Notes under the pieces: generated by a model
What the model saw: only the letters and a program-made list of their open reading frames with translations
Told to the model about the DNA's origin: nothing
Databases searched by the model: none
Shown: positions 157 to 59,320 of the stretch, one piece after another
How the letters are laid out: every line of letters starts with the position of its first letter
How positions within the stretch are numbered: position 1 is the stretch's first letter
Program-made: the position numbers and the translations under genes
Origin: Parabacteroides sp.
Lineage (GTDB): Bacteria; Bacteroidota; Bacteroidia; Bacteroidales; Tannerellaceae
Assembly: GCA_017481945.1 (NCBI GenBank)
Contig: JAFUOJ010000021.1
Coordinates: forward strand, 159,600-223,599
Direction of reading: 5' to 3'
DNA length: 64,000 nucleotides

Positions 157-244
157 AAAAGTTTGGATATTTTTCGGAAAAAGTCTAAACTTTTTGTGTA
201 AAAAGTCCAGACTTTTAAAATCAAAAGTTTAGACTTTTTTCATC
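157..244. repeat. Array A: four 22-bp units with a near-palindromic core
   Basis: Units start at 157, 179, 201 and 223, exactly 22 bp apart. Cores of units 2 to 4 are AAAAGTCTAAACTTTT, AAAAGTCCAGACTTTT and AAAAGTTTAGACTTTT; unit 1 is a decayed version. The unit 4 core is the exact reverse complement of the unit 2 core, so the outer arms can pair as one long hairpin. It lies about 250 bp past the 3' end of the purF-like gene. Function is unknown; operator array or structured transcript end are both possible. Confidence 0.8.
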
Positions 245-432
245 CTAAAAAACGGGTAAAAGTGACAAAAACCGATACTTTCAGCGCAAAAAGTACTGTT
301 TTCTCCCTCTTTTTCCCATAAACTACGATTTTGGAAACCTTTTATCTCCGATTTTTAGTTTCTATTTTACTCCATTTTTGAATCAAATTTGAATTGACAA
401 AATGTCACTTTTCATTCGAGCGACATCACACA
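245..432. other. AT-rich spacer with no recognisable gene
   Basis: This stretch holds no convincing ORF and no further copy of the upstream 22-bp unit. I see no conserved promoter or RNA structure before the hairpin that starts at 433. Confidence 0.5.
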
Positions 433-470
433 AAAAAGCAAGAACCTCTCCTATTGAGATCCTTGCTTTC
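432..470 (-). terminator. Rho-independent terminator of the purF-like gene
   Basis: On the minus strand AAGCAAG plus ATCTC pairs with GAGAG plus CTTGCTT across a short AATAG loop, followed by six T residues. It starts 28 bp after the purF-like stop codon. Confidence 0.8.
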
Positions 471-497
471 TTCATTATTCAAAATGAATCATTTCAT

Positions 498-1904
498 TTA
501 GAAACAACTACTTCCATCAAAACAGTGTGTACAAACCTTACATTTCGGCAAACCAATCGCCTCTACTAAAGTTTCAACTGTATTAAATTTCAGAGAGGTT
601 AGGCTAAAACGATCGGCAATGATTTGCACCATTTTCTTATATTCCGGTGAATCTGTTGTAGCATACTTCTCTAAGTTTTTGTTTTCATCTCCCTCTAATT
701 CCTTGATAATTCGGCGAGTAATCAACTCTAAAGGTGTCTTGGAAGAAGTAAAGCCTATGAAAGGACAACTATAAATCAATGGAGGACAGGCGATACGCAT
801 GTGGACTTCCTTAGCTCCATAATCATATAATATCTTTACATTATCACGAAGTTGCGTTCCACGTACGATAGAGTCATCGCAGAACAGAATGCGTTTTCCC
901 TCCAACATGGCACGGTTCGGGATCAACTTCATCTTAGCAACCAAAGAACGTAGTTCTTGATTAGCCGGGGTAAAGCTACGAGGCCAAGTCGGTGTATATT
1001 TAGCAATTGCCCGATGATAAGGAGCCCCTTTTCCTTCAGCATAGCCTAAAGCCATTCCAACTCCGGAGTCAGGAATACCACAAACACAGTCTACTTCGTT
1101 TTCATCTTTCTTACCCATCTTATAACCACATTGGAATCGTACCTCCTCAACATTCCGACCTTCATAGCAAGAAACCGGGAAACCATAATAGACCCAAAGG
1201 AATGAACAAACCTGCATTTCTTCGTTTGGTTTACGTATTTGCTCAATACCATCAGCACGTAAACGAAGGATTTCTCCCGGACCTACATATCTATCTATTT
1301 CATAATCCAAGTTCGGCAAACTACTGGATTCACTGGTTGCAGCGAATGCACCCTCTTTTTTTCCAATAATAATCGGTGTACGTCCCCATTTATCACGGGC
1401 AACAATAATCCCATCTTCGGTTAATAATAGCAATGAACAGGAACCTTTTATCCGGTTATATACATTCTCTATCCCCTCAACAAAGTTTTTTCCCTGCGTA
1501 ATCAACAAGGCAACCAACTCTGTTTGATTGGTCTTACCAGAGCTTAATTCAGAGAAATGCATATTCGCATCCAATAATTCACGCTCCAATTCATCTAAAT
1601 TATTAATCTTAGCAACCGTTACAATTGCGAATTTTCCTAAATGAGAATTAATAACAATAGGCTGTGCGTCCGTATCACTAATAATACCAATACCGGCATT
1701 ACCTACAAACTTAGGAAGAGAAGATTCAAACTTTGTACGGAAATAAGAGCTTTCCAAATTGTGAATAGAACGAGTAAAACCAGACTCTTTATCATAGGTT
1801 ACCATACCACCACGGCGAGTCCCTAAATGAGAATTATAGTCGGTTCCATAGAATAAATCAGTAGAACAAGCCGACTTTGAAATAGTTCCAAAAAAACCAC
1901 CCAT
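498..1904 (-). CDS. Amidophosphoribosyltransferase (PurF) paralogue lacking the glutaminase cysteine
   Basis: A 468-residue protein with the two-domain architecture of PurF: an N-terminal Ntn-type glutaminase-like half and a C-terminal phosphoribosyltransferase half. The PRPP loop is intact (residues 339-350, FCDDSIVRGT). PurF enzymes need a cysteine at the mature N-terminus to hydrolyse glutamine, but this protein begins MGGFFG and the nearby arginine/glutamine-binding segment is also altered (HLGTRRGG). Cys233, Cys380 and a C-terminal cluster (C455, C458, C461) resemble the 4Fe-4S ligands of Bacillus-type PurF. It may use ammonia, another amide donor, or act outside purine synthesis. A true purF is presumably elsewhere. 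The PurF fold call is secure; the activity is not. Confidence 0.8.
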   Translation of the reverse strand: MGGFFGTISKSACSTDLFYGTDYNSHLGTRRGGMVTYDKESGFTRSIHNLESSYFRTKFESSLPKFVGNAGIGIISDTDAQPIVINSHLGKFAIVTVAKINNLDELERELLDANMHFSELSSGKTNQTELVALLITQGKNFVEGIENVYNRIKGSCSLLLLTEDGIIVARDKWGRTPIIIGKKEGAFAATSESSSLPNLDYEIDRYVGPGEILRLRADGIEQIRKPNEEMQVCSFLWVYYGFPVSCYEGRNVEEVRFQCGYKMGKKDENEVDCVCGIPDSGVGMALGYAEGKGAPYHRAIAKYTPTWPRSFTPANQELRSLVAKMKLIPNRAMLEGKRILFCDDSIVRGTQLRDNVKILYDYGAKEVHMRIACPPLIYSCPFIGFTSSKTPLELITRRIIKELEGDENKNLEKYATTDSPEYKKMVQIIADRFSLTSLKFNTVETLVEAIGLPKCKVCTHCFDGSSCF

Positions 1905-1930
1905 GTGTTTTTAAATTTTGAATTTGGCTG

Positions 1931-1938
1931 CAAAGGTA
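1931..1938 (-). promoter_or_regulatory. -7 box TACCTTTG for the purF-like gene
   Basis: The Bacteroidetes -7 element TAnnTTTG lies 27 bp before the start codon. No well-spaced TTTG -33 box is visible. Confidence 0.5.
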
Positions 1939-2042
1939 TAAGATTATTTCAAAAATCCTTTAAGAGAATAAAAACAATCACACACTTTTTATTACTTCAA
2001 TTTATCAACACAAAAGAGAATCTTAATACTTATTTTGCTCAA

Positions 2043-2082
2043 AAAGAACTAAAATGTGCAGATTCTAAATCAAAAGTTCTTT
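2043..2082. repeat. Inverted repeat AAAGAACT/AGTTCTTT overlapping the etf promoter
   Basis: Perfect 8-bp arms at 2043-2050 and 2075-2082. The right arm overlaps the -33 TTTG of the etfB promoter, so this could be an operator, but that is inference. Confidence 0.4.
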
Positions 2083-2109
2083 GAGATAAAGAATGTTTGA
2101 TTACATTTG
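2080..2109 (+). promoter_or_regulatory. Bacteroidetes sigma-ABfr promoter of the etf operon
   Basis: TTTG at 2080-2083, an 18-bp spacer, then TACATTTG at 2102-2109. This is the best promoter match in the window and lies 65 bp before etfB. Confidence 0.75.
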
Positions 2110-2174
2110 CAACCGGATAATTATGCTTAAATTTGTACTAATTATCTAATATTGAAATCTAATATTCTTATAAT

Positions 2175-3053
2175 ATGAGTTTAAAAATTATTGTATTAGC
2201 GAAGCAAGTTCCGGATACACGCAATGTAGGAAAGGACGCGATGAAAGAAGACGGTACTATCAACCGTGCTGCTCTTCCCGCTATTTTCAACCCGGAAGAC
2301 TTGAATGCTCTTGAACAAGCGCTTCGTTTGAAAGACACCTATCCAGGAACTACTGTAACCCTATTAACAATGGGTCCTGGTCGTGCCGCAGAAATTATTC
2401 GTGAAGGTTTATATCGTGGTGCTGATGGTGGTTATTTATTAACTGACCGTGCCTTTGCTGGTGCTGACACGTTAGCTACTTCTTATGCATTGGCAACAGC
2501 TATCAAGAAAATCGGAGAATATGACATTATTATCGGTGGTCGTCAAGCTATTGATGGAGATACAGCTCAAGTAGGTCCACAGGTCGCTGAAAAATTGGGA
2601 TTGACTCAAATCACTTATGCTGAAGAGATCTTAAATGTAGATGAAGCGACTCGTCGTATCACAGTAAAACGTCATATTGATGGTGGTGTTGAAACCGTAG
2701 AAGGTCCTCTTCCTATTGTCATCACTGTAAACGGTTCGGCAGCTCCTTGTCGTCCACGCAATGCTAAATTAGTGATGAAATACAAACGTGCTTTAGGAGC
2801 ACAGGAAAAAGCAGCTACTACAGTAGATATGCCTGAATTGTATGAAACTCGCCCCTATTTGAATATTCAAGAATGGAGTGTTGCTGATGTAAATGGTGAT
2901 TTGGCACAATGCGGTTTGTCAGGCTCACCAACTAAAGTTAAAGCCATCCAGAATATTGTTTTCCAAGCGAAAGAAAGCAAGACACTGACTGGGTCAGACA
3001 AGGATGTTGAAGATTTGATTGTTGAACTGTTAGCTAACCACACAATTGGGTAA
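2175..3053 (+). CDS. etfB: Electron transfer flavoprotein beta subunit (EtfB/FixA family)
   Basis: This 292-residue protein opens with the EtfB signature KIIVLAKQVPDT and keeps the adenine-nucleotide-binding fold (GGRQAIDGDTAQVGPQVAEKLG near residue 120, shown by position rather than in full below). It pairs with EtfA, encoded 3 bp downstream, to form the FAD/AMP heterodimer that takes electrons from acyl-CoA dehydrogenases in the cytoplasm. The next gene but one is such a dehydrogenase, so the three form one functional operon with a clear TTTG/TAnnTTTG promoter upstream. Whether the flavoprotein also bifurcates electrons cannot be decided by eye. The symbol follows the family; fixA would be an equivalent name. 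Confidence 0.93.
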   Translation: MSLKIIVLAKQVPDTRNVGKDAMKEDGTINRAALPAIFNPEDLNALEQALRLKDTYPGTTVTLLTMGPGRAAEIIREGLYRGADGGYLLTDRAFAGADTLATSYALATAIKKIGEYDIIIGGRQAIDGDTAQVGPQVAEKLGLTQITYAEEILNVDEATRRITVKRHIDGGVETVEGPLPIVITVNGSAAPCRPRNAKLVMKYKRALGAQEKAATTVDMPELYETRPYLNIQEWSVADVNGDLAQCGLSGSPTKVKAIQNIVFQAKESKTLTGSDKDVEDLIVELLANHTIG

Positions 3054-3055
3054 TT

Positions 3056-4075
3056 ATGAATAATGTATTTGTATATTGTGAACTTGAAGGCACAACAGTT
3101 GCCGATGTAAGTCTCGAACTTTTGACCAAAGGTCGTAAGTTAGCGAATCAGTTAAACTGCCAATTGGAAGCAATTGTTGCCGGTTCTGGTTTAGAAGGTA
3201 TTGAAAAGCAGGTAATGCCATTTGGAGTAGACAAAGTACATGTATTCGACGCTCCGGGTTTATTCCCTTATACTTCACTTCCTCACGCTTCTATCCTAAT
3301 TAATTTATTTAAAGAAGAAAAGCCACAAATCTGTTTGATGGGTGCAACTGTCATCGGTCGTGACTTAGGTCCTCGTGTTTCTTCTGCTTTGACAAGTGGT
3401 TTGACAGCGGACTGTACTTCTCTTGAAATTGGTTCACACGAAGATAAAAAGGCAGGTATTACTTATGAAAATCTATTATATCAGATTCGTCCGGCTTTCG
3501 GAGGTAATATCGTTGCTACGATTATCAACCCGGAACATCGTCCACAAATGGCGACAGTTCGTGAAGGTGTGATGAAGAAAGAAGTTTTAGATGTAAACTA
3601 TCAAGGTGAAGTTGTTAAACATGACGTAGCAAAGTATGTTCCTGAAACAGACTACGTAGTAAAAGTAATTGACCGTCACGTTGAAAAGGCTAAACATAAT
3701 TTGAAAGGAGCTCCAATTGTAATCGCTGGTGGTTACGGTATGGGATCCAAAGAGGGATTCGACATGTTGTTCGAATTGGCAAAAGAGCTTCATGCAGAAG
3801 TTGGTGCCAGCCGTGCAGCTGTTGACGCAGGCTTCTGTGATCATGATCGTCAAATCGGTCAAACAGGTGTAACTGTTCGCCCTAAATTGTATATAGCTTG
3901 TGGTATATCCGGACAGATTCAGCACATTGCCGGTATGCAAGATGCTGGTATCATCATCTCTATCAATAACGATGAGAATGCTCCTATCAATACTATCGCT
4001 GATTATGTAATCAACGGTACAGTAGAAGAAGTCATCCCGAAGATGATTAAGTATTACAAACAGAACAGCAAGTAA
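3056..4075 (+). CDS. etfA: Electron transfer flavoprotein alpha subunit
   Basis: A 339-residue protein with the C-terminal FAD-binding domain of EtfA at about residues 220-300. Visible motifs are VIAGGYGMGSKEGF, GASRAAVDAG, QIGQTG and the hallmark LYIACGISGQIQH. It forms the electron-transfer dimer with EtfB, whose stop lies 3 bp upstream, and is followed after 4 bp by an acyl-CoA dehydrogenase. The tight spacing implies one transcript and coordinated stoichiometry. The N-terminal domain (about 1-190) supplies the dimer interface. No terminator is present before the dehydrogenase gene. Confidence 0.94.
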   Translation: MNNVFVYCELEGTTVADVSLELLTKGRKLANQLNCQLEAIVAGSGLEGIEKQVMPFGVDKVHVFDAPGLFPYTSLPHASILINLFKEEKPQICLMGATVIGRDLGPRVSSALTSGLTADCTSLEIGSHEDKKAGITYENLLYQIRPAFGGNIVATIINPEHRPQMATVREGVMKKEVLDVNYQGEVVKHDVAKYVPETDYVVKVIDRHVEKAKHNLKGAPIVIAGGYGMGSKEGFDMLFELAKELHAEVGASRAAVDAGFCDHDRQIGQTGVTVRPKLYIACGISGQIQHIAGMQDAGIIISINNDENAPINTIADYVINGTVEEVIPKMIKYYKQNSK

Positions 4076-4079
4076 AGAG

Positions 4080-5786
4080 ATGGCAAATTATTATACAGAC
4101 ATTCCGGAACTCAAGTATCACTTGAACAATCCGATGATGGAACGTATTTGCGAACTGAAAGAACGCAATTACAGAGACAAAGATGAATTTGACTATGCAC
4201 CGCAGAACTACGCTGACGCATTGGATTCATTCGACAAAGTACTCGAAATTACAGGTGAAATCACAGGTGAAATCATTGCTCCAAACGCAGAAGGGGTAGA
4301 CGCAGAAGGCCCTCATTGTGCAAATGGTCGTGTGGAATATGCTTCAGGTACAAAGCAAAATTTGGAAGCAACTGTTAAAGCAGGCTTAAATGGTATGACT
4401 ATGCCTCGCCGTTTTGGTGGTTTGAATTTCCCAATTACTCCATACACAATGTGTGCAGAAATTGTTGCTGCTGCTGACGCTGGTTTTGGCAATATCTGGT
4501 CATTACAGGACTGTATTGAAACACTTTATGAATTTGGTAATGAAGATCAACACAGTCGTTTCATTCCGCGTATTTGTGCAGGGGAAACAATGTCAATGGA
4601 CTTAACCGAACCAGACGCGGGTTCAGACTTACAGTCTGTAATGTTGAAAGCTACATTCGACGAAAAGGAAAACTGCTGGCGTTTGAACGGGGTTAAACGT
4701 TTCATCACAAACGGTGACGCAGACTTGCATTTGGTATTGGCTCGCTCAGAAGAAGGTACAAAAGATGGACGCGGTCTATCTATGTTCATCTATGACAAAA
4801 ATGATGGTGGTGTAAATGTTCGCCGTATTGAAAATAAATTGGGTATTCACGGTTCTCCTACTTGTGAATTAGTTTACAAAAATGCAAAAGCTGAGCTTTG
4901 TGGAGATCGTAAATTAGGTTTGATTAAATACGTCATGGCCTTGATGAACGGTGCTCGTTTGGGTATCGCTGCACAGTCAGTAGGTTTAAGTCAAGCAGCT
5001 TACAATGAAGGATTAGCATACGCAAAAGAGCGTAAACAGTTTGGTAAAGCTATTATTGAATTCCCTGCTGTTTATGATATGTTATCCATCATGAAAGCCA
5101 AATTGGACGCGGGTCGTGCTCTATTGTATCAGACATCTCGTTACGTAGATATTTACAAAGCATTAGATGATATTGCTCGCGAACGTAAATTAACTCCAGA
5201 AGAACGTCAAGAACAAAAGAAGTTTGCAAAATTAGCAGACGCTTTCACACCGTTAGCAAAAGGTATGAACTCTGAATATTGTAATCAGAATGCGTATGAT
5301 TGTATCCAGATTCATGGAGGTTCCGGTTTCATGTTGGAATATGCGTGTCAGCGAATTTATCGCGATGCTCGTATTACTTCTATCTATGAAGGAACGACTC
5401 AATTACAAACAGTAGCAGCTATTCGTTACGTGACTAATGGTTCTTACTTGGCAACTATCCGCGAATATGAAGCGATACCTTGTGCTCCCGAAATGGAAAC
5501 TTTAATGGCGCGTTTGAAAGTTATGACAGACAAGTTTGAAGCTTGTACTAATATTGCTAAAGCTGCTCAAAACCAAGAATTACAAGATTTCGTTGCACGT
5601 CGTTTGATGGAAATGGCAGCAGATTGTATCATGGCCCATTTATTAATCCAAGATGCAACTAAAGCTCCAGAAATGTTTGCGAAATCTGCAGTTGTTTATA
5701 TGAACTATGCAGAAGCAGAAGTTGAAAAGCATACTAACTTTATCACCAACTTTAATGCTGACGCTTTAGTAAATTACAGACAATAA
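4080..5786 (+). CDS. Acyl-CoA dehydrogenase with C-terminal extension
   Basis: A 568-residue flavoprotein, longer than the roughly 380 residues of simple acyl-CoA dehydrogenases because of an N-terminal helical extension and a C-terminal helical domain after about residue 460. Core motifs include DLTEPDAGSDLQ, NGVKRFITNG and, near the C-terminus of the core, IYEGTTQLQ, where Glu437 matches the catalytic base Glu376 of the medium-chain enzyme. It oxidises an acyl-CoA (chain length unknown) and passes electrons to the EtfBA encoded just upstream. In anaerobic gut Bacteroidales such modules may run in the reductive direction or in branched-chain acid metabolism; that is inference. Confidence 0.9.
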   Translation: MANYYTDIPELKYHLNNPMMERICELKERNYRDKDEFDYAPQNYADALDSFDKVLEITGEITGEIIAPNAEGVDAEGPHCANGRVEYASGTKQNLEATVKAGLNGMTMPRRFGGLNFPITPYTMCAEIVAAADAGFGNIWSLQDCIETLYEFGNEDQHSRFIPRICAGETMSMDLTEPDAGSDLQSVMLKATFDEKENCWRLNGVKRFITNGDADLHLVLARSEEGTKDGRGLSMFIYDKNDGGVNVRRIENKLGIHGSPTCELVYKNAKAELCGDRKLGLIKYVMALMNGARLGIAAQSVGLSQAAYNEGLAYAKERKQFGKAIIEFPAVYDMLSIMKAKLDAGRALLYQTSRYVDIYKALDDIARERKLTPEERQEQKKFAKLADAFTPLAKGMNSEYCNQNAYDCIQIHGGSGFMLEYACQRIYRDARITSIYEGTTQLQTVAAIRYVTNGSYLATIREYEAIPCAPEMETLMARLKVMTDKFEACTNIAKAAQNQELQDFVARRLMEMAADCIMAHLLIQDATKAPEMFAKSAVVYMNYAEAEVEKHTNFITNFNADALVNYRQ

Positions 5787-5803
5787 TTGATTCTCCTTAT
5801 TAT

Positions 5804-5840
5804 AAAAAGGACAGAGATTATAAACACTCTGTCCTTTTTT
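5804..5840. terminator. Bidirectional terminator between acyl-CoA dehydrogenase and MATE genes
   Basis: AGGACAGAG pairs with CTCTGTCCT, with a run of T on both strands. The hairpin covers the last codons of the MATE gene, so its 3' coding end doubles as the terminator of the convergent operon. Confidence 0.85.
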
Positions 5841-7122: not shown

Positions 7123-7150
7123 CTTTTTTTCTCTTTTTTCTTTTAGAGTT

Positions 7151-7158
7151 CAAAGATA
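7151..7158 (-). promoter_or_regulatory. -7 box TATCTTTG for the MATE gene
   Basis: TAnnTTTG element 29 bp before the start codon; no clear -33 box. Confidence 0.45.
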
Positions 7159-7173
7159 AACAAAAACAGTTAT

Positions 7174-7208
7174 AAAAAACGAAAGCCGCGGGATTCACAT
7201 CCGGCGGC
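7174..7208 (-). terminator. GC-rich terminator downstream of tpx
   Basis: On the minus strand a ten-base stem beginning GCCGC and ending GCGGC, with one mismatch and a GTGA loop, is followed by a T-rich tract. About 50 bp separate it from the tpx stop codon; that spacer contains no ORF. Confidence 0.75.
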
Positions 7209-7259
7209 CTCCTACACTAACCCTTAACTTTAACCAATGAAAAACAATAATCTTTTTAA

Positions 7260-7763: not shown

Positions 7764-7798
7764 AATGAAATATTTATCGCTTCATTTAAAGTTGCATA

Positions 7799-7806
7799 CA
7801 AATGTA
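7799..7806 (-). promoter_or_regulatory. -7 box TACATTTG for tpx
   Basis: TAnnTTTG element 36 bp before tpx; a TTTG on the same strand at 7828-7831 gives a 21-bp spacer. Confidence 0.55.
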
Positions 7807-15035: not shown

Positions 15036-15077
15036 AGTGTCAAAAAATTAGACAGTAGTGTCAAAAAAATGGACACT
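15036..15077. repeat. Array D: two 21-bp palindromic units, enhancer-like
   Basis: Two abutting 21-bp units starting at 15036 and 15057: AGTGTC-N9-GACAGT and AGTGTC-N9-GACACT. The cores TGTC-N9-GACA look like binding sites of NtrC-type activators. They sit about 90 and 110 bp upstream of the predicted sigma-54 start of tolC, a normal enhancer distance, and about 150 bp from the ppdK promoter. Confidence 0.7.
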
Positions 15078-18410: not shown

Positions 18411-18421
18411 TTACATGAAAA

Positions 18422-18486
18422 CAACTCTAAACCTTACTCGAGGAGTAAAGCGGACGTTACTCGAGGAGTAAGATTTTTTAGAGTTG
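18422..18486. repeat. Array B: two identical 15-bp palindromes inside an inverted repeat
   Basis: TTACTCGAGGAGTAA occurs at 18434-18448 and identically at 18457-18471, 23 bp apart; each is a near-perfect palindrome. Outside them CAACTCTAAA (18422-18431) and TTTAGAGTTG (18477-18486) form a perfect 10-bp inverted repeat. It lies about 135 bp upstream of the promoter box of the phosphoesterase gene. Confidence 0.8.
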
Positions 18487-19701: not shown

Positions 19702-20079
19702 ATGGATATGGAGCGATATTTAATTATAAAAACAAGAGATGAATTATTACGTATTAAGATAGGGCAGATACTCTATTTTGAGGCAGATAGAAATTATACT
19801 AAATTATTGTTATCCAATAATATTCAATTTACATTTGCTATTAATATAGGAAAAATAGAAGAGCTGTTAGAGAAACAGGTAGCAGGTTGTAATGCAATTT
19901 TAATGCGCGTAGGTAAAAGTCATATCATTAACAAGAATCATATCTTACAAATTAATTTGCCTAAACAACGTTTGTTATTACTCACTCAAGACGGAAAACC
20001 AAAGGAATTAGTAATATCAAAAGATCCTTTGAAGATGTTGAAAGATACACTTGAAAAGGAGATGGGAGAATTAAAATAA
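19702..20079 (+). CDS. Stand-alone LytTR DNA-binding protein
   Basis: A 125-residue protein that is nearly all LytTR domain: IGQILYFEADRNYTKLLL in the first half and the ILMRVGKSHIINKNHI segment typical of the domain. There is no receiver or membrane domain, so it is not a standard response regulator. LytTR domains bind direct repeats about 21-22 bp apart, and arrays of that phasing occur elsewhere in this window, though no link is shown. The next gene, an FHA protein, starts 16 bp downstream. Start at 19702 or 19708 are both possible. Confidence 0.8.
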   Translation: MDMERYLIIKTRDELLRIKIGQILYFEADRNYTKLLLSNNIQFTFAINIGKIEELLEKQVAGCNAILMRVGKSHIINKNHILQINLPKQRLLLLTQDGKPKELVISKDPLKMLKDTLEKEMGELK

Positions 20080-20095
20080 TTAAAAGGCTTTGTTC

Positions 20096-20746
20096 ATGAT
20101 TATAAAAATAGGGAAAGCAGTAGATAATAATTTTATTGTAAATGATCCTCATGTTAGTCGACATCATGCACAGCTGATTCATAAAGAAGAGGGTTGGATT
20201 TTAGAAGATTTAAATTCAACTAATGGTACGTTTGTTAATGGTGTTCAGATTGTTAAGAAATATGTTACTTTGACAGATACAATTAAATTAGGAGATAATT
20301 ATGTATTGGATATTTCGGAGGTTTTGAAATTTAATAATGACTATAGTGAAGAGTTCTTAGCTTTAAAAAAGGTATATGATAATTATATCCAGGAAAAAGT
20401 TCGAATTCAATCGGCCAATCAATTTAAGACACGAATTTTCCAATCTTTACCGTTTGCTCTTCCTGGTATAATTGGTATAATCATAGGTTTTTTAGGAGAA
20501 AGAAATCCTTTATTATTAGGGGTTAGTTTGTTTATTGCGATTTGTGCACCCACAATTGGTATTTATTTAGGAGCAAAACAATCCGCTAAAATACCTCTTT
20601 TACTTCAGGATCTCGTTAATCAATTTAAAATTGATTATGTTTGTCCTAAGTGTGGAACCTTTTTAGGAGAAGTGCCCTGGGAATCACTACGGAATCGTAA
20701 ACAATGTCCGGTTTCATCATGTAAAGCAAAGTGGGTTAGTGAATAA
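20096..20746 (+). CDS. Membrane FHA-domain protein with C-terminal zinc ribbon
   Basis: A 216-residue protein from the ATG at 20096 (an in-frame TTG at 20090 is less likely). Residues 1-75 form an FHA domain with intact phosphothreonine-binding residues: SRHH at 21-24 and NSTNGTFVNG at 40-49. Two membrane helices follow (about 118-134 and 139-160), then a zinc ribbon with Cys183, Cys186, Cys204 and Cys209. Both ends should be cytoplasmic. It is likely to recruit a phosphorylated partner, such as the kinase encoded at 22478, to the membrane. The zinc ribbon may bind a protein or nucleic acid. Confidence 0.82.
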   Translation: MIIKIGKAVDNNFIVNDPHVSRHHAQLIHKEEGWILEDLNSTNGTFVNGVQIVKKYVTLTDTIKLGDNYVLDISEVLKFNNDYSEEFLALKKVYDNYIQEKVRIQSANQFKTRIFQSLPFALPGIIGIIIGFLGERNPLLLGVSLFIAICAPTIGIYLGAKQSAKIPLLLQDLVNQFKIDYVCPKCGTFLGEVPWESLRNRKQCPVSSCKAKWVSE

Positions 20747-20844
20747 ATCATAGTTTTATATACTAAAAGTAATACTTTCGTACAGTAAACCCAAACGTTT
20801 GATTATAAGGATTTATTTTATGTTTTAAGTCCAATCAGATTCCT

Positions 20845-20852
20845 TACTTTTG
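20845..20852 (+). promoter_or_regulatory. -7 box TACTTTTG for the acidic protein/FHA/PP2C/kinase operon
   Basis: TAnnTTTG element 30 bp before the 79-codon gene; it marks a transcript start separate from the LytTR-FHA pair. Confidence 0.55.
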
Positions 20853-20881
20853 TTTCCAGAAAATTTAATTATAACATCATT

Positions 20882-21121
20882 ATGCAAGAAGAGGATTACA
20901 CATTCGTGACATTAGACAGCGAAGACACAAATTTGTCCGAAGCTGTTATCTTGGATGTGGACGGGGAAAATGATTTATCAGATATTGTAATGATTGATGA
21001 AGGTATAGAAGTTTCTGATTTTATCACATTATCTGACGATACAATTATGTTATCTGATACAGATACATTAGATACGTATTCAACAGATATTGAAGGTTCT
21101 GATATTTCATTTATCTTATGA
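20882..21121 (+). CDS. 79-residue acidic Ser/Thr-rich protein without basic residues
   Basis: I do not recognise a family. The protein has 24 Asp/Glu, no Lys, Arg or His, and about 18 Ser/Thr. Short recurrent pieces such as LSD, VSD, LSDD and LSDTD occur from residue 32 to 61. The net charge is near -24. The gene has its own TAnnTTTG box and its stop overlaps the start of the zinc-ribbon/FHA gene by 4 nt (ATGA), so the two are translationally coupled. The neighbours are a kinase, a phosphatase and two FHA proteins, so a kinase substrate or FHA ligand is a reasonable guess. A reverse ORF covers the same DNA but lacks such support. Confidence 0.72.
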   Translation: MQEEDYTFVTLDSEDTNLSEAVILDVDGENDLSDIVMIDEGIEVSDFITLSDDTIMLSDTDTLDTYSTDIEGSDISFIL

Positions 21122-21621
21122 TTTCCGTTAAATGTCCACATTGCCATGTTGGGTTAAAAGTAGACGAGGGGAAAATTCCCCTCGATATTACTTCTTTTAA
21201 GTGCCCTAAATGTAAACAACCGATTTCAGTCTCTTTTTTAAAGGAAAGTCAAACTGAATCAGAAACGATTGTTATACAGCCACAACGATTAACAACAGGA
21301 TGTCTTACAGTGGTTGCTAATGAAGATACACAAGAACAAAAGTTTTTACTTCAAGAAGGTAGTTATACTATAGGTCGAAAATCAAGTACTTCAAAAGCCA
21401 CAATTGGAATTTTGACAGCGGATAAGTCAATGAGTCGTGAACATATTCGTATTGAAGTAAAAAAAGATGTGAAAGGAGGGTATAGACACTATCTTTCTGA
21501 CAATAATAGTAAAAATCAAACGTTATATAATAGCAACTTTCTAAGAAATGGAGAGATCGTTGTATTAAAAGATAATGATGAAATTATTATCGGTCGAACT
21601 ATTCTTCGTTTTAATGAGTAA
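21118..21621 (+). CDS. Zinc-ribbon and FHA-domain protein
   Basis: A 167-residue soluble protein. The N-terminus is a zinc ribbon of the MJ0042/zinc_ribbon_5 sort (CPHC at 6-9, CPKC at 29-32). Residues about 80-165 form an FHA domain with Arg87 in TIGRKSS and SREH at 106-109; the usual NGTxxNG segment is degenerate. Between them lies an acidic threonine motif, ESETIVI (Thr50), placed as the phosphorylated threonine is in actinobacterial GarA/OdhI regulators, which act by folding back on their own FHA domain. The gene overlaps the acidic-protein gene by 4 nt. It could be a phospho-switch controlling unknown targets. Confidence 0.82.
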   Translation: MISVKCPHCHVGLKVDEGKIPLDITSFKCPKCKQPISVSFLKESQTESETIVIQPQRLTTGCLTVVANEDTQEQKFLLQEGSYTIGRKSSTSKATIGILTADKSMSREHIRIEVKKDVKGGYRHYLSDNNSKNQTLYNSNFLRNGEIVVLKDNDEIIIGRTILRFNE

Positions 21622-21633
21622 AATTTCTATGCT

Positions 21634-22437
21634 ATGGATATAACAATCGGCAAACCTTGGGGAATAAGTGAAAAAGGAGGCAGATTGAATAATGAAGATT
21701 CCATCTACCCTCAACCAGAAACTGCGAATTCCAATCATAAACTATTTTTAGTGTGTGATGGAGTTGGAGGAGCTGAGAAGGGAGAGATTGCAAGTGCATT
21801 GGCCTGTGACTCTTTTGAAACTTATTTTTCTACTTTTTATGAAGGAGATCTAACAAAAACTTTTATAGATAAAGCCGTTATTTATACAGAAACTCGTTTT
21901 GATGAATATATAACGAGCCATCCAGAGGCTGCCGGTATGGCAACGACTCTAACGATGGCTTATGTGGGTTCAAATGGTGTTACATTAGCTCATATAGGGG
22001 ATAGTCGAATCTACCATTTTAGAAAAGGAGAGATTTTATATCAGACAGAAGATCATTCTTTAGTAAGTGAGTTTGTAAAATTGGGTAAGATAACCAAAGA
22101 AGAGGCTCGAAAACATCCGCAACGAAATGTTATTTTACGTGCTATCCAGGGATGTGCTCATTCAACAGAGGCAGATGTTGTGTCTTTGAGAGATATTAAA
22201 GCGGGGGATTATCTGTTTATGTGTTCGGATGGAGTGTTAGAAAATCTAACGAACGAAGATCTATCTGCTATTTTCAAGCAATCCAATGGGGTTGAAGAAA
22301 TCAAAACGAAGATTATGAGTTACTGCGAAGGAAAAACACGAGATAATTTTTCATTCTATATAATTCCTATACAAAATGTGTTAGAATCTAAAGGTTTTAA
22401 GCAAAATATTCTTTCTTTTCTTTATTCTTTTATGTAA
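21634..22437 (+). CDS. PP2C-family Ser/Thr protein phosphatase
   Basis: A 267-residue cytoplasmic phosphatase of the bacterial PP2C (Stp/PrpC) type. Metal-binding motifs are all present: NNED at 19-22, VCDGVGG with Asp42, HIGDSRIY, MCSDGVLENL and, near the C-terminus, RDNFSF. It should need Mn2+ or Mg2+ and remove phosphate from Ser/Thr of the kinase and its substrates. It lies 12 bp after the FHA gene and 40 bp before the kinase gene, the usual pairing of eukaryotic-like kinase and phosphatase. Confidence 0.94.
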   Translation: MDITIGKPWGISEKGGRLNNEDSIYPQPETANSNHKLFLVCDGVGGAEKGEIASALACDSFETYFSTFYEGDLTKTFIDKAVIYTETRFDEYITSHPEAAGMATTLTMAYVGSNGVTLAHIGDSRIYHFRKGEILYQTEDHSLVSEFVKLGKITKEEARKHPQRNVILRAIQGCAHSTEADVVSLRDIKAGDYLFMCSDGVLENLTNEDLSAIFKQSNGVEEIKTKIMSYCEGKTRDNFSFYIIPIQNVLESKGFKQNILSFLYSFM

Positions 22438-22477
22438 AAGATGTACTTTTACAACTTGATTAAGTAAAAGTATAGTT

Positions 22478-24280
22478 ATGAATTTGCCAAACGAATATGT
22501 TCTTCAAAACGGGAAATACCGAATAACTCACACCATTGGACAAGGAGGGTTTGGTATAACATATAAAGGCGTTTGGTATACGGAAGTCAAGGGCTCATTA
22601 GGAACAGTTAAAACAGAAGTACCGATTTGTATAAAAGAATATTTCTTTAAAGACTACTGCTATAGGGATACAAATGACTCTTTTACTGTCAAAGTTCATT
22701 CAGAAACAGGTAGAGTTCTTTTCAATAAATTCAAGGAAAAGCTTATCAAAGAGGCGAAAATACTTTCTGAAGTCCATCATCCACACATTGTAAATGTGTT
22801 AGAAGTTTTCGAAGAAAATGGGACAGCCTATATAGCTATGGAATATATTTCAGGTTGTTCTCTCAAATCCATGATGGATAGGGAAGGGGTACTGCCAGAA
22901 GCAAAGGTGCTTCGATATGTTCATCAGATAGGAGAGGCGCTTCAGTTTGTACATGAGAAAAATATTCTTCATTTAGATATTAAGCCCAGCAACATCCTTA
23001 TTGATTCGTCCGGAAAAGCTCGTCTCATAGATTTTGGTGTAAGTAAAAGATATGATGTTGAGCAGCAAGAGACCAGTACGACAATGTTGACTCTCTCTAA
23101 AGGATTTGCTTCAATAGAACAGTATGATAATGAAGGAATACAAAATTTTTCTCCATGCCCGGATATTTATTCGTTGGGAGCTACCATGTACAATTTATTG
23201 ACAGGAAAAATCCCTACAGAGTCTATTTTAAGAGCTACACGTCCTTTATTGGAGCCAACGAAACTAAATAAAGACATATCTTCTAAGACTGAGGCTGTAA
23301 TCATTAAAGCTATGCAGATTATTCCGGCAGATCGTTTTCAAACAATCACCGAAATGATGGCTGCATTGGATTTTCCGGCAGAGGAGGAAGAAACTAATTT
23401 ATTAACTGAAAAATTAGAATCAGATAGTAAAGAGGATGAAACAACAGTTTTAAATATAAAAGAACAAACTTCTCCCGAGGAGGAGGATGAACAAACAATT
23501 ATAAGAAGAGAAACTATCTCTTCTTTCTCTAACAAAAAGAAAAGTAAGGGAAAGCTTTTACTAATACCGATATTTGTAGTTGCGATTATTTGCTCAGGTG
23601 TCATTTTATTTTTGAGAGCACGAGGAAATAAAATAGATATTGAAGAGAGAGTTCAAGTAGATAGTTTGTTATTGAAGAAAAATCCTGTAGATTCTAATGT
23701 AATAGAGGATAAACAAGAACTTTTTGTTGAGAAGAAAGTGGATACCTCCAAAATCAATCAGGAATTAAAACAGAAGACAGAAAAAGCTATAATCGAGAAG
23801 AAGGTTGATGTTAAAGAAAATACGACTAAGAAGAATGATGTTCAGCCACAGCCAGAACAACATTCAGTCCAAGATATAGAGACTAAGTATGCAACATTGA
23901 TTCTTTCAGGTAAAGAAAAAATGGAGAATGCTGATTTTATAAATGCAAGATTAGATTTTACAAAAGCAAAAGAAATTAAGCTCACAGAAGAGGTTATACG
24001 TCTTTTAATTACTTGTGATGAAGAAGAAGCTATAAAACAACTTGCAGATAGGAAAGCTCAATATGAAATCAAAAAGACTTTTGGAAATTTCATGATTGTA
24101 CGAAAGAAATCAACAAAGTTATATGGGGCGATTGATGAAGAGGCTAAAGAATGTATTCCTTGTATTTATTTGAATGTAGGAATTACTGATAATGGCCGTG
24201 CTTTTGAACGTAAAGATGGGTTATTTGACATTTATAATGCCAAGGGGATATTAATAAATGAAGGAGTAACCTATTATTAA
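22478..24280 (+). CDS. Transmembrane Ser/Thr protein kinase with C-terminal WG-like sensor
   Basis: A 600-residue protein. Kinase domain about 14-297: glycine loop GQGGFG (21-26), Lys53, Glu92, HLDIKPSN (165-172) and DFG (185-187). The usual HRD arginine is Leu, so this is a non-RD kinase. An acidic juxtamembrane segment (300-350) has two threonine motifs, DETTVLN (Thr322/323) and DEQTIIRR (Thr340). A single membrane helix (about 359-380) leads to a periplasmic part of about 220 residues with a charged linker, a TPR-like helical segment and WG-type repeats (YGAIDEEAKECIPCIY). It probably senses an envelope signal. Downstream genes are closely spaced and likely cotranscribed. Confidence 0.92.
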   Translation: MNLPNEYVLQNGKYRITHTIGQGGFGITYKGVWYTEVKGSLGTVKTEVPICIKEYFFKDYCYRDTNDSFTVKVHSETGRVLFNKFKEKLIKEAKILSEVHHPHIVNVLEVFEENGTAYIAMEYISGCSLKSMMDREGVLPEAKVLRYVHQIGEALQFVHEKNILHLDIKPSNILIDSSGKARLIDFGVSKRYDVEQQETSTTMLTLSKGFASIEQYDNEGIQNFSPCPDIYSLGATMYNLLTGKIPTESILRATRPLLEPTKLNKDISSKTEAVIIKAMQIIPADRFQTITEMMAALDFPAEEEETNLLTEKLESDSKEDETTVLNIKEQTSPEEEDEQTIIRRETISSFSNKKKSKGKLLLIPIFVVAIICSGVILFLRARGNKIDIEERVQVDSLLLKKNPVDSNVIEDKQELFVEKKVDTSKINQELKQKTEKAIIEKKVDVKENTTKKNDVQPQPEQHSVQDIETKYATLILSGKEKMENADFINARLDFTKAKEIKLTEEVIRLLITCDEEEAIKQLADRKAQYEIKKTFGNFMIVRKKSTKLYGAIDEEAKECIPCIYLNVGITDNGRAFERKDGLFDIYNAKGILINEGVTYY

Positions 24281-40493: not shown

Positions 40494-40620
40494 TAAACCA
40501 ATGACTAAATTCTATATTTCCTATTAAAATCATTGAGATAAACAGATAAAAAAAGACTTTATTAGAACGTATTGGAAAGGAAGAAATGTCTTTATAAAAA
40601 AATGTACAGACTTTTTTTAA

Positions 40621-40682
40621 AGTTTCAGGTAAGAAACTTCAAGTTTCATCATAAGAAACTCCGAGTTTCATTACTTGAAACT
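40621..40682. repeat. Array C: three 21/22-bp units with inverted arms AGTTTC/GAAACT
   Basis: Units at 40621, 40642 and 40664. Each has arms AGTTTC and GAAACT round a 6-7 bp centre. Unit 3, read on the other strand, resembles unit 1. The array lies 128 bp past the rpmB promoter and 135 bp before the nitroreductase gene. The rest of 40339-40817 shows no other structure beyond the rpmB promoter. Confidence 0.8.
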
Positions 40683-40817
40683 TTTAGGAATCTAATAATC
40701 GGTTGGAATTTATCTAACTACTTATGAAAAGAATTCAACTAACTAATAATTATCTTTCTTTAATTCAACAAAATAGATAACAAAAGAGTTTTATTTCTGA
40801 TTGAATTTAAAATTTGA

Positions 40818-48971: not shown

Positions 48972-49235
48972 CGGCAAGCCGCTTTCCGAGGATTCTTTTC
49001 TTCAAAAATGTATCGGCCAGCCACTGACCTGTACCTCTATGTTAAAAGAAGAACCGGCCAGCCACTAACCCACCCTTCTTTGTTAAAAAATCCATTAGTC
49101 AGCCGCTAACCTGCACTATTTTGTTAATGAGTTTTAAGGATTAGTGGCTGACCTAAGCTACTTATATAAAAGTGTTAAAGGTCTGCGGCTGTCCGGCTCT
49201 ACTTTTCAGGAAGTTGAACCGGACAGTGACTAACC
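48972..49235. repeat. Array E: seven units, 39-42 bp period, some boxes inverted
   Basis: Unit starts: 48972, 49014, 49055, 49096, 49138, 49180, 49219. A typical unit has box 1 CGGCCAGCCACTAACC and then box 2 near TTTGTTAAAA about 25 bp later. In units 5 and 6 box 1 is the reverse complement (GGATTAGTGGCTGACC, GGTCTGCGGCTGTCCGG) while box 2 stays in place in unit 5. Units 6 and 7 share complementary CTGTCCGG/CCGGACAG arms. The array fills the spacer between the divergent nuclease and peptidase genes. Confidence 0.85.
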
Positions 49236-52214: not shown

Positions 52215-52233
52215 ATCATCAAAACAAACACAT

Positions 52234-52273
52234 AAAAAAAGTCCTCGGCAGATCTCTGCCGAGGACTTTTTTT
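52234..52273. terminator. Bidirectional terminator between S9 peptidase and GH31
   Basis: AAAAAAAGTCCTCGGCAGA pairs with TCTGCCGAGGACTTTTTTT across two bases; a very strong stem with T runs on both strands. Confidence 0.95.
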
Positions 52274-52284
52274 ATGTGTTTATC

Positions 52285-54687: not shown

Positions 54688-54716
54688 GATAATAATAAAT
54701 TATGTAATATTTTGTG

Positions 54717-54724
54717 CAAAGATA
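54717..54724 (-). promoter_or_regulatory. -7 box TATCTTTG for the GH31 gene
   Basis: TAnnTTTG element 30 bp before the GH31 start. Confidence 0.45.
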
Positions 54725-54742
54725 ATACAGATATTGAGATTA

Positions 54743-56941
54743 TTAACGAGTCTTATCTGTAATCACCAATGAATGTTTACCCGCTTGAAGGACTTTCACC
54801 TTGTTTTCTGCTACTTGAACTTCTGCTGTAGTTCCCTCAGGAACAGTTAATTGAAGTTGTACACGTTTCCCTTTCTTCTTAGCACTTACTTCAATCAAGC
54901 CGAATTTAGTGTCTACTACACCTTCGACCTCTTTCAAATATCCCATCTGTGGCGCAACACGGAACACTCTAAATCCCGGTTCTACTGGTTCGATACCACA
55001 AAGTTTCTGACCAAACAGGATAATTGGAGCTCCTGTCCAAGCATGGTTCAAAGAACCATCCAGACTAAAATGTTCGGCCAGCGTAGTACTACCCTCTCTC
55101 ATCACAATCGGATAACGCTTTTTCATGCGATCTAAAGCTAAAGAAGGTTCACCCATTTGGAATAAAGCTTCTAATACATACTTTTCCATGTAAGGACTTG
55201 CATGTTGTTCAGTAGTCAATAATTTTATAATCGCAGGATATTTATCAGGAGAAGCTAAACCTGAAACAACAGCCATTGCCTGTACGCGATCATCTGTTTT
55301 TTCGGTATAGTCAGCCGAACGATAGGCTGTACCATTCCAATAACGTTTGTTATAGCTTTCATAAATACGTTTCATAATTGCTTCTATCTGCTTCACATCT
55401 TCTGTCTTTCCTAACTGAGCTGCGAAAACCCGTTCAGCCTTTAATGCTAAATAATACCAACAAGGAATGAAAGCATATTGATCTTTATTTTGACCGGCGT
55501 CAATCCAAGTCCAACCTCCTTCACGGAAAATAGGTAAACCTTCATTATCCAATTGCCAAGTCTCATGTAAATAACGTTTCACTCGGTCATAAACTATTGG
55601 AATGAAAGTACTGTCAGCACTATAAAAATATTGATTATGAAAACCATACCAACCAACAGAAGCAAGCATTTGACCCGGTAATTCTGAGAAGTAGTTTCCT
55701 GCAGGAACCGGAGAAGAAATAGAACCGTCTGCTTTTTGCCAATTCATCAATTCATAAATACCTTTTACTGCTAACTGATGAGAAGAGGGAGACAATGCGT
55801 AAAAAGCTTCTCCTAATTCATTCACTTCGTCACCCCACCACTGACCTCGTTCACGATCCGGACAGTCCATGTAGGTATCACGCATACAGACATAAAGCGT
55901 ACGTACTGCTCTTTTCCAAAACTCATTGAAGAACTCCTCATTACAGTGGAACTTTCCGGTGAATTCTGTATCGTAACCTGTTTCGCGATATTTTACTTCC
56001 AACACTTTTACTCCTTCTGGAATCATGTAGCGAACTTCATCGCCGTTCATCCAACCGAAACACTCAAATTCCTGTATACCGTCACGAGTAATATATTCTG
56101 CACGAAGACTGCGGGCTGTTCCAATTTCATAATGATCTGTTTGCATATTAATTAGCTTACCAGCAGGTGCTTCTACCTTTAGATAGGGAGTTACATGACA
56201 GTTATAAGGCAAACGACAGAATAGAGTATCTCCGTTTTGACGAACACTAACATATTCACGCATACCATAGTTTTTCCATAGAGGAATCGGACGTTTCACT
56301 AACTTACCGAAAGGAGCCTGTTCCGGTTGCATAGGCAATAGCATTGATCCACCAATACGTTTCGGATGACCACCCATATTCCAATCTACCAGATCCTTCC
56401 GAGCGTCAAAGCGAATATTACTTTCAGCCATACGATAGTTGGGATAAGGTTCTCCTGTATTTTGGAAAGAATGGTGAATCGAAGCTTCCCAGGTCTGATC
56501 TGAAATCAGTTCCAACTCCGGACAAATCGCCTCAAACAATAAACCAGCTGTACCACTATTGATATGGCTAAAACCATTACGACCAAAATGCCAAATCAAA
56601 ATAGCTATATGGTTCTCTCCCGTTTTCAAATAAGGAGCGATTTCAACTTCGTCATAATAGGTATCTCCGAATGAAGGACCTCGTTTCAATCCACCTTCAA
56701 AGACAACCAATTGTTTATTAATCCACAACCAATACTTTGTATCAGTTGCAATACGAGCAGTTAAACTTTTCGGTACTTTATCTAAATTTACTTTCTTACG
56801 AAAAGCAAGCCAAGAGTTTGCTTCGCTTTGGGATTCTGATTTAGAAATCCATTTAGCTTTCCACTTATGTTCTCCTGCTTGAAGGGAAAATAGATTTCCC
56901 AACAAACAAGCGATACAACAGAATAAAAATGTTTTCTTCAT
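54743..56941 (-). CDS. GH78-type alpha-L-rhamnosidase, tandem copy 2
   Basis: A 732-residue exported enzyme (signal KKTFLFCCIACLLGNLFSLQ). An N-terminal beta domain with DTKYWLWINKQLVVFEGGLK precedes a barrel bearing DCPDRERGQWWGDEVNELG, the GH78-like signature. Ends with a beta domain. It is very similar throughout to the gene at 56948 (same domain order, many identical blocks), so it arose by tandem duplication. The spacing is 6 bp. It would release terminal alpha-L-rhamnose; substrate glycan unknown. Confidence 0.85.
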   Translation of the reverse strand: MKKTFLFCCIACLLGNLFSLQAGEHKWKAKWISKSESQSEANSWLAFRKKVNLDKVPKSLTARIATDTKYWLWINKQLVVFEGGLKRGPSFGDTYYDEVEIAPYLKTGENHIAILIWHFGRNGFSHINSGTAGLLFEAICPELELISDQTWEASIHHSFQNTGEPYPNYRMAESNIRFDARKDLVDWNMGGHPKRIGGSMLLPMQPEQAPFGKLVKRPIPLWKNYGMREYVSVRQNGDTLFCRLPYNCHVTPYLKVEAPAGKLINMQTDHYEIGTARSLRAEYITRDGIQEFECFGWMNGDEVRYMIPEGVKVLEVKYRETGYDTEFTGKFHCNEEFFNEFWKRAVRTLYVCMRDTYMDCPDRERGQWWGDEVNELGEAFYALSPSSHQLAVKGIYELMNWQKADGSISSPVPAGNYFSELPGQMLASVGWYGFHNQYFYSADSTFIPIVYDRVKRYLHETWQLDNEGLPIFREGGWTWIDAGQNKDQYAFIPCWYYLALKAERVFAAQLGKTEDVKQIEAIMKRIYESYNKRYWNGTAYRSADYTEKTDDRVQAMAVVSGLASPDKYPAIIKLLTTEQHASPYMEKYVLEALFQMGEPSLALDRMKKRYPIVMREGSTTLAEHFSLDGSLNHAWTGAPIILFGQKLCGIEPVEPGFRVFRVAPQMGYLKEVEGVVDTKFGLIEVSAKKKGKRVQLQLTVPEGTTAEVQVAENKVKVLQAGKHSLVITDKTR

Positions 56942-56947
56942 ACGATA

Positions 56948-59152
56948 TTATTTTGTTTTTACGGTTATACGATATTCTCCAGCTTCAAACTGTTTCTTCT
57001 TTCCTGTTGCATTAGGAACTTCTGCTGTTGTACCCTCAGGAACAGACAATGTCATTTGAATTTTACTTCCACTTCGTTTCAATGCCACCTTAATCATACC
57101 ATAATTGGTTTCCAATGAAGTGGAAGCCTCTTTCAAGCTTCCCATTTGCGGACACACCTGGAATGAACGGAAGCCTGGTGAGGTTGGTTCTACACCACAA
57201 ACTTTCTGGCTCAACAGTGTCAAAGGTCCTCCACTCCATGCGTGGTTGATCGTTCCACCACCAAAACCTTCAGAGCCAATTCCCCATCCTTCGAACAGAG
57301 TAGTATGATCCTCATATCTCAACATCTTTGTATAGCGAGTCTTCATACGTTCCAAAGCAAACTCCGGTTCATTCATTAAGAAGAGAGATTCTAAAACATA
57401 TTTCTCCATATACGGACTTGCATGATACTCTTTCTTTAGCACCTTTACCAATGCCGGGTACTTATCTGCTGAAGCTAATCCTGAAACTACAGCCATTGCC
57501 TGTGAACGATCATCTGTTTCCTTCGTATAATCTGCCGAACGGTAAGCTGTACCTGTCCAATAGACAGAATCAAAGGTCTCAGCCAACTTATTCATCTTCT
57601 TCGTGATCATTTCCACGTCAGCGGTCTTGCCTAACATCTTCGCAAATTCTCTTTCTCCTTTCAAAGCCAAATAATACCAGCAACTGGTCAAAACTCCTAA
57701 GTCTATATTTTCGCCCCAGTCTCCCCAGTTCCATTCTCCTTTACGCTTGATAGGTTGTCCCTTTTCATCCAACTTCCATACTTCATGCAAATAGCGATGT
57801 ACTCTGTCATAAATAGGAGCTACGAAACTACGATCTCCACTATAATAATATTGTGTATAGAAGCCATACCAACTTACTGAGGCCAACATCTGCAACGGTA
57901 ACTCTGAACGCCAAATGCCAGAAGGCATCGGAGAGAAAAGTGTACCATCAGCCCGTTGCCAGTTTACTAACTCATAAATACCTTTCAATGCTAATTTATG
58001 GCTGGATGGAGAAAGTGCATAGAAAGCTTCGCCTAACTCATTCACTTCGTCACCCCACCACTGTGCACGTTCACGATCCGGACAGTCCATATAGTTATCG
58101 CGCATAGTTATATAAAGAGTTCGTGCCGAACGTTTCCACAATTCAGTGTAAAATGGATCATTACAGTCAAAAGAACCTGAAAACTCTGCATTGTAACCTG
58201 TTTCACGGAACTGTACATCCAAAACTTTCACCCCTTCCGGAATCACATACCAGATCTCATGTCCATTCATCCAACCATAGCTTTCGTATTCCTGTACCCC
58301 TTCGCGTGTGATATATTCCGCACGTACATTCAGTTCGGAACCTCCGTTATAGTTATCTGTCTGCATTTTAATCATCTTACCAGCCGGGGCTTCTACCTTT
58401 AAATAAGGTGTTACCTGCGCATTGTATGGCAAACGACAAATTAAGGTATCCCCGGAAGTACGCTGTGAGACATACGGTTTCAAACCATAATCTTTAAACA
58501 ACGGTATCGGACGTTTCACTAACTTACCGAAAGGGGCTGAACCTGCGTCACAAACCGGAATAATTCCTTTTAACTTTTTACTTTGATAGCCCGGCTGATT
58601 CCATCCAGCTTCCGCCAAACGAGCGTCAAAACGAACATTACTTTCTGCTAACCGAGAGTTTGGATGTGGAGCTTCTGTTGTTTGATAAGCTTCATAAACG
58701 AATCCTTTCCAAGTACGGTCAGTAACAATCTCGATACCGGGTCCTACCGCTTCAAAGAGTAATCCTGCTGTACCGCTACTGATATGGCTGAATCCATTCC
58801 GACCGAAGTACCAGACCAAAAGAGCAATGGTATTCTCCCCTTTCTTCAAGTAAGGAGCTATCTCCACTTCATCATAATAGGTATCACTAATCGAAGGACC
58901 CCGTTTCAATCCACCTTCGAATACAACCATTTCGCCATTGATCCACAACCAATATTTACTGTCAGCAGCAATATTGGCCGTCAATGCTTCAGGTACTTTC
59001 TCAATGTCTACCGTCTTACGATAAACAATCCAGCTATTTGTTTCACTCGTACACATTGAGGGAACAATCCAACTGGCTTTCCATTCCGATTTTGCTTCTG
59101 TGGTAAAAACTAAAGCTACCAAGAGCAACAATAAATAATAAAGCTTCTTCAT
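56948..59152 (-). CDS. GH78-type alpha-L-rhamnosidase, tandem copy 1
   Basis: A 734-residue exported enzyme (signal KKLYYLLLLLVALVFTTEA). Same architecture as its downstream neighbour, with DCPDRERAQWWGDEVNELG and TINHAWSGGPLTLLSQKVCG. Long shared blocks include GEAFYALSPSSHKLA and ESNVRFDARL. The 167-bp spacer before it holds the 24-bp array F. It likely belongs to the same transcript as the 59320 gene, but the spacer could weaken coupling. Confidence 0.85.
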   Translation of the reverse strand: MKKLYYLLLLLVALVFTTEAKSEWKASWIVPSMCTSETNSWIVYRKTVDIEKVPEALTANIAADSKYWLWINGEMVVFEGGLKRGPSISDTYYDEVEIAPYLKKGENTIALLVWYFGRNGFSHISSGTAGLLFEAVGPGIEIVTDRTWKGFVYEAYQTTEAPHPNSRLAESNVRFDARLAEAGWNQPGYQSKKLKGIIPVCDAGSAPFGKLVKRPIPLFKDYGLKPYVSQRTSGDTLICRLPYNAQVTPYLKVEAPAGKMIKMQTDNYNGGSELNVRAEYITREGVQEYESYGWMNGHEIWYVIPEGVKVLDVQFRETGYNAEFSGSFDCNDPFYTELWKRSARTLYITMRDNYMDCPDRERAQWWGDEVNELGEAFYALSPSSHKLALKGIYELVNWQRADGTLFSPMPSGIWRSELPLQMLASVSWYGFYTQYYYSGDRSFVAPIYDRVHRYLHEVWKLDEKGQPIKRKGEWNWGDWGENIDLGVLTSCWYYLALKGEREFAKMLGKTADVEMITKKMNKLAETFDSVYWTGTAYRSADYTKETDDRSQAMAVVSGLASADKYPALVKVLKKEYHASPYMEKYVLESLFLMNEPEFALERMKTRYTKMLRYEDHTTLFEGWGIGSEGFGGGTINHAWSGGPLTLLSQKVCGVEPTSPGFRSFQVCPQMGSLKEASTSLETNYGMIKVALKRSGSKIQMTLSVPEGTTAEVPNATGKKKQFEAGEYRITVKTK

Positions 59153-59186
59153 ATTTATATAGTTTATATTTCACCATGCTTTTGTT

Positions 59187-59320
59187 GATAGGGGTGGGAA
59201 TCCCGGTTTCCCCTACCATAGAGACACCCGTATTGATACCTATGGGAACAGAGGCTTCGATACCTATAGTGGCACAGGCTCTGATACCGGTATCAGCACC
59301 GGTGTTGATACACCCCTTAC
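59187..59320. repeat. Array F: six 24-bp units between two rhamnosidase genes
   Basis: Units begin at 59187, 59211, 59235, 59259, 59283 and 59307 (the last partial), exactly 24 bp apart. Typical start is GATACCTAT, and unit 5 contains GATACCGGTATC, a perfect palindrome, and CACCGGTG. The last unit reaches the stop codon of the 59320 gene. If transcribed in the operon it would sit between the two reading frames. Confidence 0.85.

Follow-up and report, generated by a model that had tools for sequence, protein, structure and literature searches.

The window, the whole 64,000-nt stretch of DNA analyzed here (C13:159600-223599), comes from a draft Parabacteroides genome of 2.79 Mb that is 83% complete (G000). 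Six of its 19 intergenic spacers carry short arrays of repeated units, designated A to F (Table 1), and a log-odds score for tandem and palindromic repeats in spacers flagged exactly these six. This result confirms the description in the earlier note of six intergenic arrays with regular pitch and palindromic units. Counting k-mers was too weak a detector in such AT-rich DNA, so log-odds scoring replaced it.

Table 1. Repeat arrays of the window and the LytTR-domain protein near array C
Feature	Position	Strand	Description	Pitch (bp)
Array A	155..242		Four palindromic units AAAAGT..ACTTTT, the first degenerate	22
Array B	15036..15077		Two units AGTGTC-N9-GACA(C/G)T	21
Array C	18418..18478		Two units TTACTCGAGGAGTAA at 18434-18448 and 18457-18471	23
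LytTR-domain protein	19702..20079	+	PF04397, E value 2.2e-10; 1.2 kb from array C	
Array D	40619..40687		Alternating half-sites AGTTTC/GAAACT at 40621, 40633, 40642, 40655, 40664, 40677	
Array E	49014..49235		Three CAGCC(A/G)C units at 49018, 49059, 49100	41
Array F	59235..59312		GATACC units at 59235, 59259, 59283	24

An inverted repeat, ACTCTAAA/TTTAGAGT, encloses the two units of array C and extends to position 18484. Array D has loops of 6, 7, and 7 nt separated by 3-nt spacers, and its right end reads GAAACTTTTAG. Array E continues past the units listed in Table 1 with two flipped G(T/C)GGCTG units (49144 and 49185) and then a weaker unit at 49224, while array F also contains a flipped GGTATC at 59289 and a GATACA at 59307. 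Across array F, from 59153 to 59319, one frame of the minus strand is open and would encode short repeats rich in Gly and Ile, which may be a chance effect.

LytTR proteins bind direct repeats with a pitch of ~21 to 22 bp, similar to that of the arrays, and the earlier note had raised them as a comparison. They fit poorly: D half-sites alternate in orientation, the families differ from one another, and a search of the genome gave five LytTR domains. As a candidate binder, the LytTR protein near array C was set aside. Read by eye, the region from 19702 to 24280 begins with this stand-alone LytTR protein and continues with frames resembling FHA, zinc-ribbon, phosphatase, and kinase proteins; it is possibly a signaling cluster.

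The detector was then applied to samples of spacers from six species of the genus, drawn from a set of 38 genomes that includes G000 and holds one genome per species. Arrays were present in 82 of 717 spacers of 60 to 2500 bp (leaving out the L006 segment shared with the window, as well as L254 and L313, both of which overlap L252; L254 is also left out of the class comparison), compared with 4 of 717 coding segments. Shuffled spacers, which had been set beforehand as the refuting test, gave fewer arrays (5/3585), in agreement with the earlier note that arrays are far more frequent than chance would allow.

When the period was left free between 12 and 60, the pitch was bimodal, with 43 of the 82 arrays at 21 to 24 bp, 33 at 41 to 47 bp, and 6 at other values. 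The two classes were also recovered when palindromes were not required, since 65 of 76 strong tandem arrays had a period of 21 to 24 or 41 to 48. Nearly all of these 65 arrays were palindromic (63/65), compared with 3 of the 11 arrays at other periods. By eye, arrays with a pitch of 41 to 42 bp often consist of two alternating palindromes ~21 bp apart. Individual arrays are non-coding, span ~40 to 570 bp, and contain 2 to 11 palindromic units; in one species, G033, they were found in 36 of 161 sampled spacers. The six repeats of the window are members of a large class of small intergenic DNA elements made of evenly spaced palindromes, and related bacteria carry many sequence-unrelated families with a common spacing. 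The suggestion that the arrays form one class of element is supported, given that the two pitches, the palindromic grammar, and the kind of place are common to unrelated families.

Arrays favor the 3' ends of genes. They were densest in spacers between convergent genes (22/125 spacers, 0.92 per kb), compared with tandem (38/369, 0.42 per kb) and divergent (16/154, 0.37 per kb) spacers; spacers at the edges of the sampled stretches had arrays in 6 of 69 cases. Within the tandem spacers, 32 of the 38 arrays were closer to the stop codon.

Array turnover between close species is fast, though not complete. In two sister species the orthologous gene is not preceded by array E, and the left side is different there as well. 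In 22 spacer-by-record comparisons between G000 and sister records, some of which overlap (spacers of 30 to 2500 bp), no array was shared and two were found in G000 only. The sister species G012 and G015 (93% identity) likewise shared no array across 30 spacers of 40 to 2500 bp, with three arrays in only the one and three in only the other. At one junction, two genes of G012 are ~122 bp apart and flank an array, whereas the same genes are separated by 4 bp in G014 and by 5 to 20 bp in G015, with the direction of this insertion being read from the two relatives that lack the array and without a tree. No target-site duplication was evident at this junction, the one clean empty site. In G003, the left-hand gene of this junction is followed by an array that belongs to a different family. 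One array (L274:7089 and L287:6663) looks kept in two sister species, G006 and G019.

The earlier note had regarded the arrays as locus specific. This holds in that arrays A to F show no sequence relation to one another, but the families of A, C, and D recur elsewhere in the genome. A self-comparison with 400-bp flanks identified a second copy of array A (L227:6139-6226; 80% identity over 88 bp, with homology stopping at the array borders) and a four-unit copy of the array C family (L212:7413), and the D family has 10 loci in G000. No second copy of array B, E, or F was found in the compared part of the genome among the matches listed. Among the same matches, homology ended at or within ~40 bp of the array for the A-L227 and C-L212 pairs, the D copies, and further pairs; L220 and L223 were 95.6% identical over 68 bp, L242 and L248 were 90.6% identical over 96 bp, and L249 and L236 were 82.6% identical over 282 bp.

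Other families are distributed in a similar way, with one to ~10 copies per sequence family in the samples. The TCACC family (TCACCnnGGTGA) had nine matches at eight loci in G023 and five at four loci in G033; G008 and G032 had a single match apiece, and there were no matches in the other 34 genomes and none in the control. In G023, three of its copies are bare arrays of ~93 to 104 bp, while the five longer ones reach up to 236 bp. For a family in G012, homology spans 221 bp among the matches listed, and one of its copies (L313) lies in an insertion of ~244 bp with AGGGCAACCG at both ends. Five genomes contain further occurrences of this end word, with a count in G014 that barely exceeds the control, and a broken short frame lies beside one copy. 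The L313 element may resemble an ISAs1-type insertion sequence; membership is not claimed, because the one frame translated is broken. Long elements with AGGGCAACCGCACC ends and mutual homology over ~390 to 750 bp were also seen in G012, G014, and G015 (L341, L342, L347, L355, and L357). Both G012 and G033 also have several loci with a different, simple repeat of period 14 that contains AATTGTC and CAATTTT words (e.g., L311:16582-16651 and L249:16787-16889). The families of A, C, and D, together with other families, have the size and placement of miniature inverted-repeat transposable elements (MITEs), being 50 to 1000 bp long, non-coding, intergenic, and present in several copies.

The D family has the most explicit grammar. 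A pattern for its tandem pairs had 13 matches at nine loci in G000 and matches at two loci in G006, with none in the other 36 of the 38 genomes and none for the reversed control. In 13 D arrays (nine from G000, three from G006, and one from G019), AGTTTC and GAAACT alternate, the spacers are always 3 nt, and the loops are 7 or 6 nt, with exactly one 6-nt loop in 12 of the 13. Loops to the left of the unit with the 6-nt loop end in AT, and those to the right begin with AT, in all 25 one-sided units (2 units were ambiguous). This center rule was obeyed by all six units of three held-out three-unit arrays (L394 in G000 and L278 and L280 in G006), each of which has one 6-nt loop, and it was broken by a degenerate two-unit match, L391. 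The held-out check yielded no array at five of the seven places examined, nor at L273. Since the one-sided units point to a single center, the flipped units represent two wings of one quasi-palindrome, and a D element may accordingly be pictured as a single quasi-palindrome, often with inverted ends. The end words CTRAAAGTTTC on the left and GAAACTTTYAG on the right were exact at 5 and 7 of 11 loci, respectively, and both were exact at 4. By eye, an A- or C-type unit precedes some D arrays, which makes these elements mosaics.

D half-sites had 4 mismatches in 516 positions, a conservation partly inflated by selection because half-sites were accepted at no more than one mismatch, while the 7-nt loops were 45% identical. 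Constrained half-sites and free loops point to a sequence-specific binder. Exactly complementary pairs of 7-nt loops were noted within L292 (loops 1 and 3), L293 (2 and 4), L298 (1 and 4), and L278:5527 (1 and 3).

Beyond D, the center-and-wings tendency is present but weaker. Orientation was surveyed in 60 of 118 arrays, those in which at least three units could be delimited (the other 58 were left out); 22 of these 60 arrays were uninformative, 18 had a single orientation, and 20 were mixed. The mixed arrays contained 24 orientation switches, compared with 30.7 ± 2.4 after shuffling (P = 0.003), and more than one switch occurred in three of them.

Taken together, these results suggest that the arrays are probably small, non-autonomous dispersed elements that behave like MITEs or REPINs without a REP transposase, and elements of this class are apparently mobile. 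We count as established that copies are dispersed and lose homology at or near the array borders, that arrays are gained and lost between close species, with one insertion read against two relatives, that D half-sites are constrained and D units form wings, and that the pitch is restricted. Such elements could be copied in trans by a transposase- or recombinase-like protein whose dimers would occupy the half-sites along a single face of the DNA at intervals of two helical turns, with each sequence family having its own binder; it is the two-turn pitch that suggests successive dimers on one helix face. Some copies may be carried inside larger inverted-repeat elements. In G000, CTRAAAGTTTC occurs 24 times (control, 4), and no opposed pair of this word lies 0.7 to 3 kb apart, the range typical of an insertion sequence; the search yielded neither a mobilizer nor an autonomous partner for D. 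The sole opposed pair beyond array size is on C23, 4.9 kb apart, and one of its members is a lone word.

The arrays could instead be operators bound by related dimeric transcription factors, each having its own specificity and controlling the genes next to its arrays. Palindromes, near-invariant half-sites, variable loops, and a two-turn pitch would all suit cooperative dimers. However, array density peaks between convergent genes, most arrays in tandem spacers lie nearer the stop, and no array was shared at the orthologous spacers compared between G000 and its sisters or between G012 and G015. In addition, the translations of the genes neighboring nine D loci, read by eye, were unrelated, and D was therefore set aside as a regulon. 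The distance from gene starts, the scattered loci, and the gain and loss of arrays all favor an element that moves or is copied, and we consider the operator explanation unlikely. Of the three origins suggested in the earlier note, whose interpretation is partly supported overall, a dispersal or recombination process is the best supported, while transcription factor operators did not hold up as the main reading.

Two further explanations appear somewhat less probable again, and about equally so. One is that the arrays are local minisatellites generated by hairpin-aided slippage during replication, which would account for the tandem units, their hairpin potential, and their varying number. It does not readily account for families common to unlinked loci with sharp borders (among the matches listed), for loops that diverge while half-sites do not, or for a pitch confined to two classes; the L220-L223 identity already suggests a recent common source for unlinked loci. 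The other is that the arrays act as transcribed RNA structures behind genes, either terminators or 3' stabilizers. Arrays do lie behind stop codons, folding is predicted, and some D loops are exact complements within an array (3 of 51 pairs, compared with 5 of 852 between arrays). Nevertheless, this proportion was low enough that kissing loops were dropped as a general D rule, arrays also occur in divergent spacers, turnover is fast, and the window had no Rfam match at the gathering threshold.

Mobilization by a RAYT (Y1) transposase, as in REP or REPIN elements, would also account for short, dispersed, clustered intergenic palindromes, but this explanation is largely refuted and very improbable: PF01797 was present in only one of five genomes and absent from G000, G012 (a single contig, 99% complete), G006, and G019, and neither a GTAG nor a CGTC tag was seen at D ends, inspected by eye. 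The genome survey rules out the REP transposase as a general cause.

Known REPIN, REP, and BIME systems resemble the arrays in being short, dispersed extragenic palindromes that form clusters, with BIMEs alternating in orientation, as described in the available text of PMC3116915, PMC3733652, and PMC2817692. They differ from the arrays, which comprise many families of few copies with a 22- or 42-bp lattice inside the element and come from genomes most of which lack the RAYT transposase (four of the five searched). The closest known relatives are two Porphyromonas gingivalis elements, BrickBuilt (23 nt) and MITE464/PgRS (41 nt), and the match in pitch to the arrays is striking. As far as the available text of PMC4596501 goes, BrickBuilt is an intergenic MITE with 19 non-identical copies, up to 22.8 tandem 23-nt repeats, leader and tail segments, IS5-like ends, and predicted long stem loops, and its sequence occurs in P. 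gingivalis and P. gulae; MITE464/PgRS has 41-nt tandem repeats in ~10 to 20 copies and overlaps BrickBuilt in sequence only at the ends. Repeats of 41, 23, and 22 nt are cited there for P. gingivalis W83, and the main text names dyad symmetry once and contains no word beginning "palindrom-". Of such arrays, the available text of PMC5771137 treats BrickBuilt only. In contrast to the single BrickBuilt family, many families were found here, and the center-and-wings order described for D does not appear in the available BrickBuilt account; nor do D ends, the ones compared, match the IS5-like GAGAC.. ends of BrickBuilt and PgRS. Literature searches on Parabacteroides, Prevotella, and Bacteroidetes listed no description of such arrays. 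Nor did we find a published account of these pitches recurring throughout a second genus and in Prevotella-type contigs, in numerous families of unrelated sequence whose units are palindromic and follow a center-and-wings order.

A common lattice in sequence-unrelated families points to a shared factor, for which we found no name. A bolder and more doubtful proposal is that one trans-acting machinery with changeable recognition builds or copies palindrome lattices of 21 to 22 bp in the Bacteroidales, such that BrickBuilt, PgRS, and the many families found here would form a single undescribed class of center-and-wings mobile elements. Given the low copy number of each family, ordinary repeat searches could miss this class. 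A direct handle on the binder comes from the half-site rule, since it specifies bait DNA for a pull-down. If the arrays are indeed mobile elements, a single class of them would occupy more than one in five of the spacers sampled from G033.
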